64,000 nucleotides of DNA from contig NC_135246.1 of NCBI RefSeq assembly GCF_947623445.1, positions 19,526,288-19,590,287 on the forward strand, given 5' to 3'. Position numbers and translations under genes: made by a program. The notes under the pieces were generated by a model. That model was not told where the DNA came from, searched no databases, and saw only the letters and a list, made by a program, of their open reading frames with translations. Numbering within the stretch: the first letter of the stretch is position 1; the number at the start of each line of letters is the position of its first letter. This DNA comes from Clavelina lepadiformis. Lineage: Eukaryota > Chordata > Ascidiacea > Aplousobranchia > Clavelinidae. This document shows positions 27,487 through 53,000 of this stretch, piece by piece.

Positions 27487-30074
27487 ATGGAATCAGCTAA
27501 CACAAAAAACTTAAAAGATGCCCTAAACTCGTCTGTGATGTCACAAGCAGATCATAGTGACAAAAACAATGGTGTTAAGGTAAAGATAATGTTGTTCTAC
27601 CAATGCATCATTTAGTATAGACCGCTAGACTTTATAGATTTTATTTTATATTTTATATTTTATAGATTTTATTTTATATATTATATTTCGATAGACCCTG
27701 AGTCAGATTTTATTTAGATGTCGTTACTTGAGCAGTCTCTGTGGATAAAATTCAACAAGTTCGTCAACGAGATGATTGTGACGAAGAATGGACGACGAAT
27801 GTTCCCAGTTTTAAAAGCGACAGTGACGGGACTTGAACCCGGCTCTATGTATTCTATAATGCTCGACTTTGTTCCGGTGGATAACAACAGGTGAGCCGAA
27901 AACCCATGACTCACTGTAAGTTATTGTTCCTTGTAAATTATCGTTTATTACGTCACAATGTCCTGCTCTAAGGTGGAAATATGTGAATGGTGAGTGGATA
28001 CCTGGGGGAAAACCCGAACCCCACGTGTCATCGTGCCCTTATGTTCACCCCGATTCACCAAACTTCGGTTCTCATTGGATGAAGCAGCCAATCGGGTTCA
28101 GCCGCGTCAAACTTACCAACAAAGCGACCGCCAACTCCCAGGTAAGAAATCGCGAAATGACAGTAGATGACTTATGACGTCATAAAACTTAACTTGCTTG
28201 CTCGTGATTTTCACAAATAATTCCGATTTTTCAGCAAATTATGTTGAACTCTCTCCATAAGTACGAGCCCCGCATCCACGTGATAAAAGTGGGGGGCGCG
28301 GACTCGCAGAAGATGATCTCGACTCATTCCTTTCCCGAGACGCGATTTATCGCGGTCACAGCTTACCAGAACGAGGATGTGAGTGGAAAATTATCTGCGC
28401 AGTCGCAACAAAATGTGTAAAAGTTTTTCAAAATAAAACGTTCGTTTTGTTCGTTAGGTGACGTCATTGAAGATTAAATACAACCCGTTCGCGAAGGCGT
28501 TTTTAGACGCAAAAGAAAGGTGAGAAAAGTTTCCAATTTGTTTCATAAAACTTTCCTGTTCTTTTATGTTCCTAATAATTTCAAGTAATAACAAACTAAC
28601 TAACTAACGTTTTTAGCAATTTCTTCAAATTTGTTGGGTACTTGCGTCAACCCAAATTCTGAAATATCTAAAAATGCTAGAAATATGGACAAATTATAAC
28701 TTCTACGCTGCTGTCCCTTGCGTAGTGAGATCACACCGGTGGCGTAGTTACTTGGCTCCTTTACATCTACTCGACTTTTTAAATTTCGCTTTTTAACAAA
28801 TTAATTTCTTTTCTCAGCCGAGCAGGTTGCGAACAATACTTTGATGCTCAGAAGCAAATGCCACAGAAATACCCGCAAAGTAAGTTTTTTTGTTTTCCTA
28901 CGATGAAAAACGTTTTAGTTGTCGGCAAATATTATGCATTTGCGACAATATTTCTCACTTTTATGTTGATTTAGACTTTAGAGAACAAGCCTTAAACACT
29001 TATTTGCACTTACTACATAACCCAAGCTAACAGTCAATCAACCGATAAATTACTCATCTTATTCCGCCATTTTGTGACTGTACAAGAGCTCTCGGTGCTT
29101 GGTGTAAGTCTCAAATCAATTATTTGCTTCAAACATTCAAAATAATTCGAGTTAAAACTTTCAGTCAACGCCTGGATGATTCCTGGCACTGAATCAACAT
29201 CAAGCGTGGCAGCCCCAGGGAATTTCCCTAACTGTTCTTTCCCCAACCCATCGATGGGACCCATGAGCCCCCATAACCCTCCATGCTACGGGAAGCAAAC
29301 ACAAACCGGGTCAAAAACCCATCGGTACGCCCCGTATTCGGTCAACCGTGACGTGTACCAAAGAATGTCGCCAGGTATGCAGCAGCTCGCGTGCCCGTGC
29401 CCGTGCATTATTCTTATGTAATAATCTCCTTTTTTTCTTCCTTTCAGCACAATTTCAGTTCCCCCAGGAACAAACGGGGTACCCCGTTCACTGCCCCAAC
29501 GCTCCCGATCCGGGCACCGCTTACTTCAACCCCTCCGAGTGGAACGAGGTCCAAGATCCCATCCCCGTTCAAACCTCAGACCCTTTCGTAACCGACCAGT
29601 TTTACTCCGAAGATGTCTTCCCATCGTTCGACTTTAACCCACAACTTCAGTCCGGAGAAATGCCCCATGACGTGGCTATGACGTCACATGGTTATGACGT
29701 CACGCAGTTTTCAACTACCTGGAACTATGGTCATGCGAACGCGATATATCCCGGAAATGGAACAACGCATGATGTCGTAGCGGAGCAAAATAACGGGTAT
29801 TTCACAAAGTTTTTTCAGGTTTTCTGTTTAAAATGAGAAGTTCTGATTTTTACGGCAGTTCCTTTACAGCAGTTTCATGGCAACTCAACCGCCTAACGCA
29901 GCTTGCGTCACTACTGCGTCATCATCGGCGAGCAGTGTTACGTCACTACCGTACGAAACGCCTTCCCCTACCATTGTTGACTTCAACGTGCACAATCACT
30001 CGCCACTCTCTGATCATTATGACATCACAGATCTCGGTCAAGTTTGGACTCCAATAACCCCGCCCAGTTTGTAA
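27487..30074 (+). CDS. Bra: Brachyury (T-box transcription factor)
   Basis: Exons: 27487-27579, 27718-27890, 27973-28141, 28235-28378, 28458-28519, 28818-28879, 29165-29374, 29448-29796, 29870-30074; 1467 nt, 488 residues, phases consistent. The T-box runs from about residue 34 to 214: [20 protein letters not shown], then [81 protein letters not shown] and [11 protein letters not shown]. These segments match Brachyury more closely than Tbx2 or Tbx6 types. The protein ends WTPITPPSL, the counterpart of the vertebrate C-terminal WTPVSPPSM. Brachyury is a nuclear factor that binds AGGTGTGA-type sites and specifies notochord in ascidians. The last intron is only 73 nt and has two in-frame acceptors three bases apart (before 29870 or 29873). 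A tandem AT-rich repeat fills part of intron one. Confidence 0.96.
27631..27687 (+). repeat. Two-copy 28-bp AT-rich tandem repeat in Brachyury intron 1
   Basis: The unit starting TTTATAGATTTTATTTTATA at 27631 recurs at 27659. It sits just upstream of the exon-two acceptor. Confidence 0.75.
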
Positions 30075-32630: not shown

Positions 32631-34631
32631 TCATCTTCTGCATTTGGTGAGGTATCTTCTGTATAAATCTCTGCCGGTGATTGCATTTCTTTTTGAATTG
32701 AAAGCTGCGTTGCTTTTTCTCAAAACTTCATGAATATAATCGTGAATGTTCGTCACACAAAGATGAGAGAAGGAAGTTCTTCTGTGTGAATTACTCACTT
32801 TATTCGAGAAAGAGATTTGTGCGGGATGCTTTGAAAAAATGTCATAAGATTCGGTTGTAACTTTTTTATACAATGAAAAAGCGGCAATTGGCATTTTCTG
32901 CTTCTATTGTGCCGTCTGCGATCATTATTTGACAAAGTACCAGGCAAACAATAATCAGGGATTTAAAAGTATTTGACATAATTATTAAAAAAGAGAACTG
33001 TAACTCACGGTGGGAGATTTTCTTCTGATATATTCCCGCAAATGATCAAGAAATTGAGAGAATCTAGAAAGCGAATTGGGCTCGAGCGGACAAAATCGTA
33101 GAAATTGATCAAAAATTGTCAAACCGGTTGTCAGATGCAGAATGGCGTCATTACTGGAGGCAAAATCGGCGAGCGACTGGAAAAATTCAAACAGTAACAA
33201 TATCGTTGTGTTTTTAAATCACCCAAATGAATACAATTCCGGTACATTTTGAGCATAACAGGCCGAATACTTCTAGGCTACGCGTTTAACTTTAACAACT
33301 CAGGCTGGACAAATATCTTTCAAAAAAACTGACATTGACCAGAATAAAAAGACAGGTGTGGACACGGTCTCGATCAATCTCATACAGGTTGGTCAGTCGG
33401 GGACCGTTCTTGGTTGCTGAAGTGTTAAAGTCAATAAAGTTGTATTTATTGCATTTTGATTATCAAGGCAAAGCTTCAAAACCGATGTTTAGAACAAACT
33501 AAAGCGTCCTCTGTTTTGCTACATAAAAAATGGTTTTGACCCGTGTAACCACGTTGTATGCCTCACCCCGTGATTAAACGTTATGCAACGGAGATCAAGC
33601 AAAATTGATGATTTTTCGGGTCAAGATCAAATTTAGATGCGAAGTTATCACTTTTGGAGAAACTCTGCGATAAAGTCATATTTTATCTGTGATATTTTTA
33701 GGCAAAGCATTTCTACGTTTATGGCGAATTTCGTAACCGTCCTGTGACCTATCGCTGACGATAAGCACAGTAGCAAGTTTCGTGCAACTGTGGTTATTGA
33801 TTGCAGCAAATATTTTTAATCACTAAACCAACTTCTTACCGTTCCCCAGGGAACTTGAAATCTGCATTCGTCGTCGCCGTTGTCCTACGAGAGAAACAAA
33901 AGGAAGTTCGTTTAAATTGCTGAGTCAACCGTTCATGTAACAGAAAATTTTGTGGCCTAGTGGGCGGATTTATTGAGTCATGGCGAGCTGGTTATTGTGG
34001 TTTTCGACAATCTTTCGTGTTTCACTTATGCAGAAACTTTCAGGGCATCATAAACAGGAGGAGTGCATCAACTAGCTCTGCCATGCTATACAGGCTGGCA
34101 ACGTTTAGAGAGTTATACAAGGTGTCTGCCTTCAAGTTTATGTCAAAAATCATTCAAGAGTTCTATTTAGTTCAGTTTCGTAAAAAACAAGATCTTTGAC
34201 AAATAAAACATGATCTTATTCAGCTCTATTATCTTGGTGAAATATCATGCCGATGACGTCATCGTTGAATGAACCTCTCAAGACTCGGTAGCAATGACAC
34301 GTCATTACCACATCTGTTGAGTTCACATCGCGTCAGGGGACGTGTTCTTTGATTTAGTTATTTCAGTTTCTAACCTCAGCGATAGCGCTATTCTGCTCGC
34401 AAACCAATAATGACATCACAATGACTTCACCTTCCATGCGTGCAAGATCCCACGTAATTGGCGAGCTCGCCTCAGAAGTTGCAATCTCATGTTTTCCGTG
34501 CTGACGTCATTGACTGCGGCATACCTTCGAACGCGATGTTCGATTTCATTGTGACGTAAAGGAACTGCCTTCAGACGATGTGGAATAAAAACTAAACACA
34601 TCATCAGTGATAACGTAATTGATGACATCAT
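32631..34631 (-). CDS. Putative secreted four-helix cytokine, IL-6/G-CSF-like
   Basis: Exons (5' to 3'): 34631-34431, 33884-33840, 33176-33009, 32897-32631; 226 residues. All three introns are phase 0, as in vertebrate class I cytokine genes, and exon two is only 45 nt and falls between the first two helices. Residues 1-22 form a signal peptide (MMSSITLSLMMCLVFIPHRLKA). Predicted helix A is STENMRLQLLRRARQLRGIL. The AB loop contains DDECRFQVPWGT. Helix B ends with TGLTIFDQFLRFC, which fits G-L-x2-[FY]-x3-L, the second half of the IL-6/G-CSF signature. Helix C is SLSRFSQFLDHLREYIRRK. Helix D is about NIHDYIHEVLRKSNAAFNSK near the C-terminus. The mature chain has four cysteines. Ligands of this class signal through gp130-like receptors and JAK/STAT; that function is inference. 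An upstream ATG at 34691 would add 20 residues and bury the signal peptide. The last-exon acceptor could also be 3 or 6 bases upstream. Confidence 0.55.
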
Positions 34632-37600
34632 ATAAAGTGCTGTCTCATATCTTTGACGATAACCCTGACCGACTACAATGACGTCAATCACTACAGCAGC
34701 AATATCGCCACTACAAGGTCAATGCCTACAGCCTGAAAGAAATGATCCAAGACTAAGTTTTTGCTTAGGTTCAAGTCACTTTCAAAAAGTTACATTGGTA
34801 CAGTTTAAGCAGCTCACCACCCAACTGCCTGGGCTGAAATTGAACTCAACAGAAAAGTGCTGAAACAAGTCAACCTGACATGCCAGCCGGCTTACTGATT
34901 AGTGATTACGTTTGCCGGCTTTTATCGCTTATACGCCAAATTCAACTATTTGGTCATAGACGCATGCCCCCAGGGGTCACGAAATTACTTTACATATCAT
35001 CGGGTGTCATGTTGTGAACGCAAGCTGAAAAAGATTCAGAGGATTCATAGGATTCAGATCCAAGGGAGGAAAATCTGATGACCAAAAAACTTTCTTGGAG
35101 TATTAGAAACAATTATTTCAGATTTAACAGAAACAGATCGACCAAGAGACGTTGAAAATTCGAGCAATGAAAACGACAGATCATATCAGTTTATTTTCGT
35201 TAAATCGATTCGATAGAAGCTAATCATATTTTTTCAACTGGAGTTTTTTGACTACCAGCTGTAGCTTATTGCGACTTAGTGTTTAAATGTCAGGGCTTAG
35301 TAATCTACTGATATAGCCTGTTGGGACATGAAAAGTTTCTTGAAAGCGTATACTTGTGCAATTTTGACTACTCGTAAACTTTTGAAAAAACGGCTTCTCA
35401 AATTTTTCTACTTTTTCTATTTGTTTTAAAAACTTTTCAAAATATTTATTCACCAAATTTTCGCAGAAACCACGTCATCATGCCAGAAATAATTTGACGT
35501 ATTTGGTATGACGACGCTATGACGCAGAACGTTTCACGCTCTTGTCGTGGCATGCGTCATTACGCATCACGCTTTCGATAGTTCTAATCTAAAAGTATTT
35601 CTGAAAATTGCCGCGCTAAGCAAGCCAATCTTTTATATAGAAGTTGTTTAACATGGAATGTGACCGTATCACTTAATCCATTACTTGCTTACCTCTTCAT
35701 ATCCGACACATACATTCATAGACCCGCTGCTCAACAAAAGGTCAGGTTTGGCAGCAGTGGCACTTAGCCTGGTTCGGCAGGTTAACGTTTGGGCGAAATT
35801 CTATTAAAACCAAAATAAACAGAGGTTTCATAGCTTTTGATGGGCCTGACTTGGCCTAGAGCAAAGTTGCAAAAACGAGTTATGAAGCAAAAGTTGGGCT
35901 AGCCCAAACCCAAGCGCTGTGAATAATAATCGAACTTTAAGACCGGAACGCAGACGTTCTGAGCTCCAAAATGTTACTCGTCTAAGCTGATAATAATCGC
36001 CTGTGCTAATCCTCGTAAAGCATGAGTCATTATTCGAATAAATTACTATGAAATCCACTATCGATGACTCAACGTCAATGCCAATGCCACACCGTGCAAT
36101 CGCGAACAACAGGATGTGACATTTTACAGCTTGTCACGTGTCAAGAAGCAGATTTCACAACCAAACCTATTATTACGTCAATAACAGGTCTAAAATGATG
36201 ACGTCATACACAAAACTGTGACCCATGAATTGCTGTAATTCAAGTTAGTAGAATAGAAACTTACTGCAGATGGTTCAGTTAGTCCGACCTACTGCATGTA
36301 GGCCTAAGTTGGTGAAGCAAAATTATGCTCTACAGAAAAGCGACGGCGTTTTTCCACAAGCACCAGATTGGCCTAAACCAACGCACGTGGAAAAATGTGA
36401 TTCTGGGCCGGCAAAGGGCAAAAGGCAAAAGGCAACGACTCCTGCAGAACAAACACGAACCAAAATGGAGAAAAACAACTTGCATTGATTGTTAAAAGTA
36501 GTTGTAGCACAGACGACGATATCGAGCGAATCGCTCGCCATAAAATATGTTTTCTATTGTTTTAGTTTTGGTTTATTTTGGGTCGTAACTTCTCGTTCCC
36601 GTTCATTCAACAACACAAGAGAAGTAAAAATGCGGGTTATGCAGCAGGTGACGGGAAAAGTTGAAGGAAAAATCCAAAAATAAAGAATTTGTAAATTCAC
36701 CAGATGGAGCAATAGACTAGAAAGCATTTTTAATATCCTCGATATCGCCGAAATTTTCGATGATTGCATAAACGTTGGAAATCTGATGACAGAATGCGGT
36801 GGCGATATTGTTGAGTCATGCAATGAAATCTGAATTAACCCTTTGTCAACACCGAGTGGTCAGCAATGTAAAATCATGAACTGCAGTTGCAAATTCATAG
36901 ACTTGTCATTACAAACATTCAAAGGCTTATTTCTCGATTTACAACGCTGTGAATGTTGATCGTGATAATTAACCGATCATAAGCTTTAACGTATATTGTC
37001 AAAACTTGAAATCATTGTGGATTATTCCAGAATAAATTTGAAAAAAAGCTTTTAATTGCACAATTGATCGATAAGTGCAAAGTATCAAATAAAGCGAAAT
37101 TCACCTTCTTACACTTTAATGCCAGTTCCTCGTGCGTTAATTTCTTGAAGTGTTGAACTTCGGTTGAAAATATTTCAATCATATTTTCGTGTATAACTGA
37201 TCGTTTTCATCTGCTTTCTGTGAAGCGCCTTTGAGCGGTTTTGATCTGGTGTTGAGCGCCATAGAAATGCTCAGGACTATTTAAGGTATTTATAATTTGG
37301 TAACTTGATTTCTTAAGCAACCTAAGCTAGTTATTATTATCGTTGTGTGGTTGACTAAGAAAGCATTGTAGATATGACAAAATCTCCAATAACTATCCTA
37401 AGAGTTATACAGATCAGACAAGCTATACACTTCGACGCTCAATTGCCGCGTGCTCACTTTTGGTTCTGGATTTCCGCCACTGTAGGGCAGTATTCCTTGC
37501 GTGCCGCGCAAACTAAACTTGCAAAACATATTCCGAAGCTAATCAAAGCTTATCTTGCCAATGTCTCAACCACGCGACAAGACGCGGCACAGACATTATG

Positions 37601-41000: not shown

Positions 41001-44000
41001 GCTGCGTTAAACAAATCCAGACAGGACATTTTTTCGCACCTTTGGTTTTTCCATCCGTTTTGTCTTCCTCGAACTTGTACTCGATGGATGCGAGACCCAT
41101 CTTGTTCATCCAGCGAGACATGTCCATCTGGCGCTCGGCGGCAAAGAAGAAGGTTTTCCTCTTTGGATGCGAGATGCGAAACGCCAACCTCCTTTTGCAC
41201 TCCGGAGCAGGAGCAATCTGTTGGATCAGCGGAGCTTAGAAATATCGAACTAACTTTAAAAAGCGGAAGTGACATATTTTAACAAAGCGTTCGTAAAATT
41301 TACTAGTTAGATCAACAAGACCATAAATTGCGACGAACAAGCAAGTAGGCGCAGCAGGTAACAGTGCCCGCTTCATACGACTGATTTCACGATAAATACC
41401 TGATATCCAGGAAGGCTTATGTAGCACTCTGCTCGCTGTTCATCGTCATCCGAATTACTTCGATAACAGTAGACTGCCCCGTTCTTTATGATGACCCATC
41501 TTTTCGCCCACTTTTGGGACAGGGGGCCGGGCCCACTTGTGTTGACCCCACTTTTCTTCTTCCACAGCCAACCCTCACAGTCCCCGTGGCCCAGGTCCCG
41601 ACAAGAAACCCTTCGTTGTGCTTTCATCTCCGCTAAATAGAGAAACTGATACATTGCAGCGATTCATGAATCTACGCTTTAAACGATGCGCACAATAGAC
41701 ATATTATAATCCTGGCCCATGGAATTGTACCACTACCACAGCCACTACCACTCAACATACAACACGACATTATTTGTACCATATGTATTCAGATGTCTTA
41801 GAACAGGGGTCGGGAACCTTTTGGCTAAAGTGAGCCATAAAAGCTACATATTTTTAATTGTATTTCCGTGAGAGCCATATGATATTTTTCTAAACTTAAG
41901 GCAATTAACATGTACATTTTAAAGCAAAACCAACAATTGTAGACAACAGTAAAAGTGTGAATTTACTCTTTATTCTTCAGTAACACGCTTTTTACAGTTA
42001 ATGCGTCTTCTGGTGTTGCATGGTATTACTGATGGCTTTGTAGTCTGATTGATACTTGGTGAGGTTAAGCTTCATACTGTAAGCGTTAAGACTTCCATCA
42101 GTTAAACGAAATCGTAGGTTGGTCTTGATGTTTTTTAAGTGCGAGAACGACTGCTCACATGCGTACGTGGAGCCAAACATGGTCATTACAGCAGTACACA
42201 CTCTCTGCAGTGTGTGATACGTGACAGGCAGCTCATTCCAGACTTTGACAATCAACTGGTCTACGGGTTGAAGTTTTTTCATTTCTGTCCACTTGTGGTT
42301 GCTAGCAAGCTCTGCTTGCTGTCGTGCAAGTTTTTCCAAATCATCATTCAGTGACTTGAACTTGTTCACCCAAATCTCGGAAGCTTTCAGATCAGCAACT
42401 TCTAACTCAAAATCTCTGACGGAAACACCAGGGATGTAACTCAAGTCGACTTCGTCCACAGCACACTCATGCGGATGAGTGATGAACTTAAAAAGAGAAG
42501 TGCGCTCCCGAAATTCTTCAGAGCGTTCTTTGAATGACTGCAGAAGATTAGTTGTGAAGCCTACCAGCTGCTGGATATTAAATTGTTGAGTAGGGTTGCT
42601 TACTATGAATGCATCTTTAAATGCTTTCAATGTTTCAAAATGTAACAGACGACCTGTTTCAATATCCGTAATAAATAACTCATCTACTGCAATAGCAAAA
42701 CTCTGTTCAATAAAATAATCTCTCAAAAAACAACTCGATTTACTGAAATACTTTGCTAAAGAAGTTCAAGGTTTCAAGTTACCGAAATATGGCTGACAAT
42801 CTGGCATTAGCGCAATTGTTACGAATCCATCTATTGTTTTGCATAATTGTTACGAAAGGATTGTTACGTTATGGAAAGTTACAAAAAAAGTTGCAGCAAT
42901 ATTGATAATTAAGATGCTAATTAAGAAGTGCCAGCTTAGATTATATCGGAGAGCCAGATGCCATCATCAAAAGAGCCATATATGGCTCGCGAGCCATAGG
43001 TTCCCGACCTCTGTCTTAGAACATTCTGTTCTACTCATATACGACTGAAATTGAACATCTTCTTGTAACTACTGTGTACTGTTGCATGTGGTGCTAGCAA
43101 ATAACCTCACCTGTGACTGAAGGGTTCAAAGCGGTTCTGCTTCTCTCAGGAGAGCCCTGAATATAAATAATTTAGAAGATGAGTTGGTTGGACTCAACTC
43201 AGAAACGTGATAGAAAAAGTACAGAGATTAAGAGATTGATGTAGAATTTTAAATTCACCTTGGATTGTGCAGCTGCGCCAAGTCTTGATAAACTCTAAAG
43301 AAACAAAAAAATGTTTTTGCTTTCTGCGTTACTTCATGGCACTGTGCTAGTGTTGCACTTGCTTTATTACATCACAATGTTTTTTTACCTTTCTCAAGCG
43401 AACAGGAACACCGGCAATGATCTTCAGTTCATAACTGCATAAAATAACAAGGAGTGAACAAACGAACAAAATTGATAAGTTATGCGTGATCATGATGAAA
43501 CTGGCAAAAACTTTGCTTTGTTATGTTTCCACAATATTCAATTTAAAAAGAAACTTGCTCTAATGATTAACTTTCCACTCAATACATTTGAAGGAGCAGC
43601 ACGGAATCAAACCTATATGTGTACTTTCACTTTACCTTAAACGGACTGTGCTGTTTACTTTAACAGGAACAATATGATTCAATTTTCTAATTCAATGCTA
43701 TTTTAATATGTGCATTGTGCATTGTCTACGCCTAGTTAAGTCTGTACTTTGATGGCGATTTATCATATTTCGTTCCTGGCACTAGAGCAGACCGTACACA
43801 AAATCCTATGGCTTAGTATAAATAAATGCATGCAAGCTACATTGGCGGTGTAAAGAGTGTGAGTTGTTATAAGCTGAAGGTCCATATCACAAAGAGCTTT
43901 TCCACTCATCAGCACAGCCACCAGGAAATAGCATTTGCACGATGCGCCCGTCATATCTGCTTACTGCTGTGCATAGCAGTCAGCTACACGCGAACGTTTG

Positions 44001-50000: not shown

Positions 50001-53000
50001 AATCTACTTGCGAAAACAAGATAAACTTGTAATGTGGAAGTCAGCATAAGATAAATTAAATGTCACGGTAGACTCACATAGGTGAGTATGGTACGTTAGG
50101 TGGTGGCGGAATTTTCAAAAGATCGATGGGACTTGAAGGTTCGTCGGGAGCAGCATGTCTGCTAGGAGCCGGTAAGACTCCTGAAGAAAAAAGTGATGAA
50201 TTTTAAAGGGAAGAGTTTTTTAGGGCAGCTCATGAAATATGGATAGAAACAAAAAGTTTTAATAAAATTACTTCTTGATCGCTGTGAAGCTTCTCTCTTT
50301 TCTTGTTTTGTTGAAAACTGGAACTTTCCATGCAAGCTGCCGGAATCAATGGAGCTGGAAAAAACATAGTAAAAGTAGAACAGACCCGAAACAAGACACA
50401 GAGCTTAACAAGCTTTTTAAACGAAACTCTTTGATATAAACTCGATTCGTAATATTTTCATGGGAGCTCACTTTGTCTCCGAGCCGTTCCGCGATGAAAT
50501 TGTTTCAGACGGAGGATTGTTAAAACTTTTCTGGGATCTGTTTGACGAAGACGTCCCATTCGAGCTGTGCGAAGATCTTCGCTGCGAACTCGATTTTTCT
50601 TGCGCTGGAAGATTTATGCGTTTGACAGGAGCAGGCGCAAACACTTGGCTCGGTCTGTAAAGTTTTCAACAGCGTAAACTTTTACTCATATTCATTTTGT
50701 TAAATCTCGCCACACATGCACTGACGTAACAGCATATGCACATTAGCCACTGAAAGCAAAATAAGTGATAACCAAAAAGTCGAACAGTAGCTAATTCTTG
50801 CAACAGCGACATTCAATTATCATGAAGATATTTTGACAAATATTCTGCTCTCACCTTTCATTTCGTTGAACCAGGAGATTTGTTGCAACGGAGCTGACGA
50901 TGTGAGGTCGCTTTTTAATCAATAATCTCACACTGGTCACTTTCTCTTTGAGCACGGCCACCAATGAACTGAGCGTCCATCCGACCTGGGTAAAAATGAA
51001 ACGTTTTAACGAAAAATAAAGACACAAACATTAAAAAAATTTTTCTTAGTATAGAAAGAATAACATGGGCAAAATCGATTTTGTAAAAAACTCAATAATT
51101 AATCAATAAAGCAGAAGCAAGTCCCAAGCTATAACTAAACCCTTGTTAGACAATAAGATATTGAATAAGCCAATAAACGAAAGCTTTTAAGGTACTTTTC
51201 AGTTATTAGAATATTCGTCGAACAAGAACAATAAGACAGCACAAAAATCAATAAAATTATAAACAAACTTACAACAGCTTTCCCGTTCACCGCAACAACC
51301 TCATCCCCGGATGTTAATTTTCTCGCTTTTGAAGCGACTGATCCGATCCTGGTGCCCGTCACAACGTGATAGCCTTCGAATGTGGCTTTGATGAAAAGTC
51401 CGAGACCCTCGTTCGGGTTGATGTCTTCAAGACTGATTTGCTCCAGTGAAACAGGATGGACTGTAATTGAGTCATTTGATTGGACGATTCTGAGAACAAT
51501 TTAAGACAACTTTTGAAACGGGGACTCAAAATTAAACCGATGGTCAACAAAACAAGTGATAAGTTGGTTCACCACATTAATCTGGCGCTGGATCTCAATG
51601 TTAAAATTAAGATTTGATATTGCAAAGTTTTTTAGGGCAAATAAGTCAGATGTTAAATCCTTAACTAGAAAACCGAGATGTTTTGCAGCGACTCTCCATT
51701 GAAGTAAACACCATTTTAAAATGCTTAAAACTTTTATTTGAGTTGGAATTTAAGTCAAAGCTCAATGTATTATTGATATATTCACACCCGTCTGCGCAGT
51801 TCTCCAACTCCGTGCAAATGTTCAAAGCCGCATCTTCAATGACACAAGCAAACACACTCTGCAAAACGAACCAAAGCGAAACATGCAAAATAAAATGATT
51901 CGTAGGCTAAACAAAAAGATAGTATAACTTAAGTAAAGTTGAAGTGCACGATGAACAGAAAGATTTGAAAATGGAAAAGTTAGTGAGTGTGGACCTTATC
52001 AAATCAAATCAAAAAATCACTAAAAGTAAAAAAATGTAAATCAAATCATAGCTTAATGGCTGTAAATAATTTATAGTATTACCTGTTGCATAGTGACACT
52101 TAATTCGTAGCATAGCTGCACTAATTTGTCCCGAGTTGAACCAAAATCCTTCTTTGTGTTAAACGGAGCTCTAATTAAAATACAATAAACTTTTATGTGA
52201 GATTTCCACAACTTACAAACTTACACAGCGTAGTGTGATAGCACACTGCAGTCTGGACATTAAACATATGCAAGGGGAGCAGACAAGACAATGCAATGTC
52301 CTATACTCGTAACTTAGCCTGGTGGTACTTCACCTTCTATACCAGTGGTTCCCAATCTTTTTTGGTGTCGGGGCCGAATTTCAAACTTAAGTGTACGTAT
52401 GGAGCCGCATGAAAACACTCAAGTAATTATAATGAAATTTTTAAAGCATGAAATCATGTACCAACGAATAGCAACACTAACAAGAAAAATAACACAAATT
52501 TTGACTAACTTTTGACAAAAAATAATCGCCCTAATTATGATAAATAGATTTTTTATATTTTTGTGGGATTTTCAGGGGTCAATGAGAGCCGCAAGAAGGC
52601 TACCTTGGAGCCGCGGTTGGGAATCACTGTTCTATACATTGCTAAAATGGAAAGTAGAATACATTATGGATATGGATAGCTCCACGCAATACAATTAATA
52701 ACATAGACATCTTTATCTTTCACCTGTCTAACCACAAGACCAGTTGCTTCCCCTCGTCCAGGACATCTGCTGCAAGATGGAGGAGTTGGTTAGGAGCTCC
52801 TCTCTGCAATGAGGCTCCGCCGTCATATTCATACTCTTCCGCTTCACGACGTCGGGTGACGATGCTGGATCGTAACCCCCGGCAACGACATTTTAAGCAC
52901 AGCGCCCTCGACTGAAGCGTTTCAGTCTCGAGGCCGTAATCCTGGAGTGAATGTGTTAAATGTTAACGAGACTAAAATGCTTGACTTCACAATTAAACAG

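Follow-up and report, generated by a model that had tools for sequence, protein, structure and literature searches.

Genes of four-helical cytokines have three phase-0 introns, which separate helix A, the AB segment, helices B and C together, and helix D (PMC12327624). In sea bass, each of three IL-4/13 genes has four exons, and teleost IL-4/13 introns are phase 0 (PMC5440397). Here we describe a gene with a comparable map in a tunicate: LOC143464428, on the minus strand of a 64-kilobase (kb) window (the whole stretch of DNA analyzed, from contig C7 of a 209-Mb assembly) of the ascidian Clavelina lepadiformis, order Aplousobranchia, whose published genome is given as 210 Mb (PMC10884593, excerpt). 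We suggest, tentatively and at somewhat below even confidence, that its product is a helical-cytokine-type ligand, i.e. a small, secreted, all-helical protein outside the IL-6/G-CSF family proper; its status as a cytokine is that of a candidate, short of proof.

The reading frame runs from an ATG at 34631 to a stop codon ending at 32631, in four exons with GT-AG introns that are all phase 0. NCBI lists the product, derived independently of our initial reading, as an uncharacterized protein of 203 amino acids (aa), here called P0001. The original prediction had proposed four exons, at 34631-34431, 33884-33840, 33176-33009 and 32903-32631, encoding 228 aa. Exons 1-3 of that model agree with P0001 at every residue and all intron phases stand, but the window reproduces P0001 only if exon 4 begins at 32828, a start deduced from the translation, so that 32903 was replaced. 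The new acceptor follows tttttcaaag, part of a T-rich tract longer than that at 32903. With this correction the mature protein, predicted at about 204 residues, shrinks to about 181, taking the signal peptide to end near residue 22. The resulting features are as follows, all on the minus strand.

Exon 1, 34431..34631, minus strand: 201 nucleotides (nt); start codon, putative signal peptide at about residues 1-22, RVRR at 33-36, predicted helix A at 46-68; ends in phase 0; the same in P0001.
Intron 1, 33885..34430, minus strand: 546 nt, phase 0, gtgaag...cgtag.
Exon 2, 33840..33884, minus strand: 45 nt; the predicted AB loop, residues 68-82, with Cys74; both flanking introns are phase 0; present in P0001.
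Intron 2, 33177..33839, minus strand: 663 nt, phase 0, gtaaga...tccag.
Exon 3, 33009..33176, minus strand: 168 nt; covers residues 83-138 and includes Cys111; helix B is predicted at 91-110, where GLTIFDQFL lies, and helix C at 115-135; ends in phase 0.
Intron 3, 32829..33008, minus strand: 180 nt, phase 0, gtgagt...aaag.
Extra stretch of the initial exon 4, 32829..32903, minus strand: 75 nt, absent from P0001 and hence a portion of intron 3.
Exon 4 according to the NCBI protein, 32631..32828, minus strand: 198 nt with the stop codon; covers residues 139-203, among them Cys162 and Cys201; the CD loop is followed by helix D, predicted at 160-181, and a predicted C-terminal helix at 190-201.

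The exon map is the strongest argument for a cytokine reading. In order, the exons hold the signal peptide with helix A, the AB loop (45 nt), helices B and C, and the CD loop with helix D, which is the arrangement described for helical cytokine genes, the helix borders here being those of a low-confidence model. The 45-nt exon does fall in the predicted AB loop of P0001 (residues 68-82), as had been proposed. It had also been proposed that the gene repeats the layout of long-chain class I cytokines; four exons with three phase-0 introns are the pattern described for IL-4-type genes. IL-4/IL-13-type short-chain genes share the four exons, the three phase-0 introns and the identical placement of the boundaries (PMC12327624; PMC5440397, in excerpt). 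They differ in that no sequence match was found and in precursor length (203 aa here versus 147 aa for viral IL-4; PMC12327624), the cytokine fold of our protein being putative. Because NCBI agrees on exons 1-3, the introns are phase 0 and the map follows the described order, we retain as a candidate the broader proposal of a secreted four-helix tunicate protein whose gene is laid out like that of a cytokine.

The N terminus resembles a signal peptide, with a hydrophobic core at residues 5-16 (mean Kyte-Doolittle value 2.68) and charged residues directly preceding Ala22. The P0001 sequence contains no N-glycosylation site. The four cysteines proposed for the region past the signal peptide are present, at positions 74, 111, 162 and 201. 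A single-sequence AlphaFold model places helices, at low confidence, at 29-40, 46-68, 91-110, 115-135, 160-181 and 190-201, with a four-residue turn at 84-87. Taken at face value, this weak model reads as helix A, a loop of 15-22 residues, helix B, a four-residue turn, helix C, a 24-residue loop, helix D, and an extra short helix. These helices and loop lengths are compatible with an up-up-down-down four-helix bundle at a mean predicted local distance difference test score (pLDDT) of only 40.1. Four amphipathic helices had been predicted; two of them, C (p 0.04) and D (p 0.02), exceed shuffled sequences in amphipathicity.

Several observations weigh against the candidate. Helices A (p 0.32) and B (p 0.47) are no more amphipathic than shuffles, and the predicted template modeling score (pTM) of the model is 0.38, alongside the low pLDDT. 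The exon-map match depends on helix borders taken from this weak model, and it was not blind: the initial reading already had the cytokine layout in mind. P0001 matches no Pfam family up to an E value of 10, a PDB sequence search with it returned no cytokine, and protein and genome searches gave no homologue beyond the locus itself. The phase-0 share of introns is roughly 45-50%, which leaves about one in ten three-intron genes with all introns phase 0, so that phase 0 by itself is common.

Another explanation, which we consider a real possibility at rather less than even confidence, is a lineage-restricted, secreted, helical non-cytokine, its likeness to cytokines being coincidental. Examples would be an effector in mucosa or tunic, or a propeptide that releases a helical peptide hormone at RVRR. 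The lack of homologues and of family matches suits such a protein, as do the frequency of phase-0 introns and the single furin-type site, RVRR at 33-36, directly ahead of a predicted helical stretch. The exon map, however, is more specific than phase alone, provided the low-confidence helix borders hold, and Pfam gives no match to a peptide hormone family either. On the cytokine-type reading, the product of LOC143464428, which is a single-copy gene, is probably fast-evolving.

Searches with predicted structures do not choose between these explanations. Seeding AlphaFold with IL-6/G-CSF sequences (27 of the 120 listed) raised the pLDDT from 40 to 65 and gave helices A 42-68, B 90-110, C 117-135 and D 152-202; this result is circular, the alignment itself carrying the cytokine fold, and was excluded as evidence. 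Foldseek, queried with the low-confidence model, placed IL-11 and IL-6 chains among 38 matches (E values 6.5 and 6.8, probability 0.02), and these were likewise set aside. A VIA-align search with the same model showed no cytokine among the 40 matches listed, which is uninformative either way. The structure searches thus decide nothing, because the query model is of low confidence.

We then compared P0001 with the IL-6/G-CSF family, to which the original prediction had assigned the gene. The PROSITE signature of this family is C-x9-C-x6-G-L-x2-[FY]-x3-L. TGLTIFDQFL in exon 3 indeed fits the second half of the signature, G-L-x2-[FY]-x3-L, at residues 100-108. The full signature is unmatched in P0001: positions 7 and 17 ahead of the glycine are Ala and Ser instead of Cys. 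Shuffling the mature sequence 20,000 times yields the half-motif in 0.4% of cases, and the copy in exon 3 is the sole match among six-frame open reading frames (ORFs) of at least 60 aa in the window (25,068 residues); on its own, this is weak evidence. Further likenesses are the precursor length (203 aa, compared with 204 and 212 aa in the two human sequences), the position of GLxx[FY]xxxL within the second of the main helices, and the short B-C link. The AB loop, in contrast, is short here (15-22 residues). IL6 and CSF3 genes have phase-0 introns around helices B and C, as this gene does, and an extra intron in the signal peptide without a counterpart here.

Profile comparisons gave little sign of this kinship. 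The hhalign probability was 0.36% against IL-6 (score 15.4; 60 plain shuffles, mean 13.2, standard deviation (sd) 2.2; 60 class-preserving shuffles, mean 13.1, sd 2.0) and 0.32% against G-CSF (score 15.0; means 12.4, sd 1.7, and 13.5, sd 2.8, for the same numbers of shuffles). These values are at shuffle level, in a test of limited power: among the controls, G-CSF alone reached 60.6% against the IL-6 profile and IL-6 alone only 2.4% against the G-CSF profile. An IL-6 helix-B profile scored 24.8 (shuffle mean 4.7, sd 4.6), a value attained by none of 400 plain and none of 400 class-preserving shuffles. We rejected this resemblance as significant, as a score of 25.8 is reached by a different ORF in the window, and two sets of 20 million random residues yield 140 and 285 matches. 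The Pfam IL6 family had no match in the genome search, in which the control genomes gave none either. Membership in the IL-6/G-CSF family is thus unsupported, because the signature cysteines are missing, the profile comparison is at shuffle level and another ORF does better on helix B; that the protein is a true member, orthologous to vertebrate long-chain cytokines, appears very unlikely.

A more basic doubt is whether the locus encodes a protein at all. The spliced transcript might be spurious or non-coding, with an ORF that arose by chance, or the gene might be mis-annotated. Three observations favor this view: no cross-species conservation was seen, the exon 4 acceptor differs between the initial reading and NCBI, and the GC content by codon position is flat (0.44, 0.42 and 0.42), unlike that of JAK-like and ATG7-like frames described below (0.45-0.48, 0.36-0.39 and 0.33-0.35). 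Yet NCBI lists a protein, and the GT-AG introns preserve the frame. The codon-usage test was uninformative, failing to separate known genes from noncoding frames; since unusual GC patterns, and codon scores just as poor, also occur in some known or likely neighboring genes, it says nothing on LOC143464428. We consider a non-coding or mis-annotated locus improbable.

A second database protein, P0002 (ENA, 162 aa, from a 952-base contig), was rejected as a separate relative: at all five positions where it has tryptophan against a stop, the window has TGA. It apparently represents the same locus from another source, a mis-called animal ORF with TGA read as tryptophan, extending from exon 1 into intron 1. 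The matching stretch is:

34308-34793, minus strand: exon 1 plus part of intron 1.

With the five TGA positions excluded, mismatches between P0002 and the window number 1 among the 45 positions of residues 23-67, 2 among the 22 of residues 1-22, 9 among the 51 upstream and none among the 39 in the intron, so that selection on the coding part is not clearly indicated. Viral contigs contained 31 stretches matching the frame pattern of exon 3, none of which encodes a relative. In the literature listings covered, which leave subscription journals and preprints outside their scope, neither this gene nor any helical cytokine ligand from a tunicate is reported.

If the product is a cytokine-type ligand, its precursor would shed the signal peptide, perhaps with trimming after RVRR, and would fold into an up-up-down-down bundle of four helices, in which a crossover loop containing Cys74 joins A to B, a short turn joins B to C, and a long loop joins C to D. 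The ligand would then bind a class I (gp130/Domeless-like) receptor on neighboring cells, and the bound receptor would signal via JAK and STAT. A tunicate receptor of the kind presupposed by the original prediction has been described: Ciona has gp130-like and CLF-3-like receptors (PMC1963337), and also one JAK and two STATs (PMC3296744, excerpt). In the Clavelina genome, we found five STAT_bind matches, four of them above the cut-off, on three contigs, and two JAK-like loci with open frames of 1113 and 1138 codons, in which FERM and kinase domains fall on 752- and 748-aa portions:

C5:14070794-14074174: JAK-like; a single open frame carries both the FERM and the kinase domain.
C1:20701620-20704958: JAK-like; a single open frame carries both the FERM and the kinase domain.

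This pair is apparently intronless across the FERM-kinase part, against a single JAK in Ciona (PMC3296744, excerpt), and is possibly retroposed or duplicated. Exon by exon, none of three class I receptor Pfam families exceeded the cut-off in the genome; none did so in any control genome either, so this is not evidence of absence. PF09240 had no genome match. The PF06328 match (E value 0.28) was dismissed as a short frame adjoining frames that resemble, by eye, a cyclic-nucleotide-dependent kinase, and the PF09067 match (E value 2) as a frame resembling, by eye, ATG7.

The proposed role, and only the role, can be likened to that of Unpaired and Domeless in Drosophila, an invertebrate secreted ligand of a gp130-like receptor acting on JAK/STAT (PMC13203501; PMC8226699, both in excerpt). 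According to the excerpts, a 2026 metazoan survey finds IL-6 in vertebrates only (PMC13203501), and another account states that IL-6 superfamily members have not been located in invertebrates while citing reported IL-6-like proteins in Drosophila (Unpaired-3) and Asterias (PMC8226699). The BLAST limits that the excerpt gives for the survey (E value 1e-5, 30% identity) would miss a protein like the LOC143464428 product. A bolder reading, which we consider doubtful, makes the product of this gene the first helical cytokine ligand of class I type from an invertebrate chordate, with an exon map inherited from the tunicate-vertebrate ancestor, and the missing ligand of the tunicate gp130-like receptor. 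If true, the cytokine gene layout would be older than the vertebrate radiation. A tunicate ligand sharing the vertebrate cytokine exon map would suggest that both partners, ligand and receptor, predate vertebrates, and it would offer a way to look for such ligands in other invertebrates by exon structure and helices instead of by sequence.

The window also contains the following features.

About 4.7-4.9 kb, plus strand: Headcase exon.
29267-29836, plus strand: long open frame in which D, F, P and Y look frequent by eye; Pfam gave nothing at E values up to 0.01; perhaps an exon of an unannotated protein.
41998-42765, minus strand: hAT transposase dimerisation domain fragment (Pfam PF05699, E value 6.3e-6).
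52083-52226, 52711-52920 and 51135-51500, minus strand: connector-enhancer-of-KSR (CNK)-type gene, with two CRIC exon matches from the genome search and a weak PDZ match.
About 60-62 kb, minus strand: actin.

We know of no vertebrate cytokine locus with Headcase, CNK-type or actin neighbors. The CNK-type gene and Headcase are possible synteny anchors.
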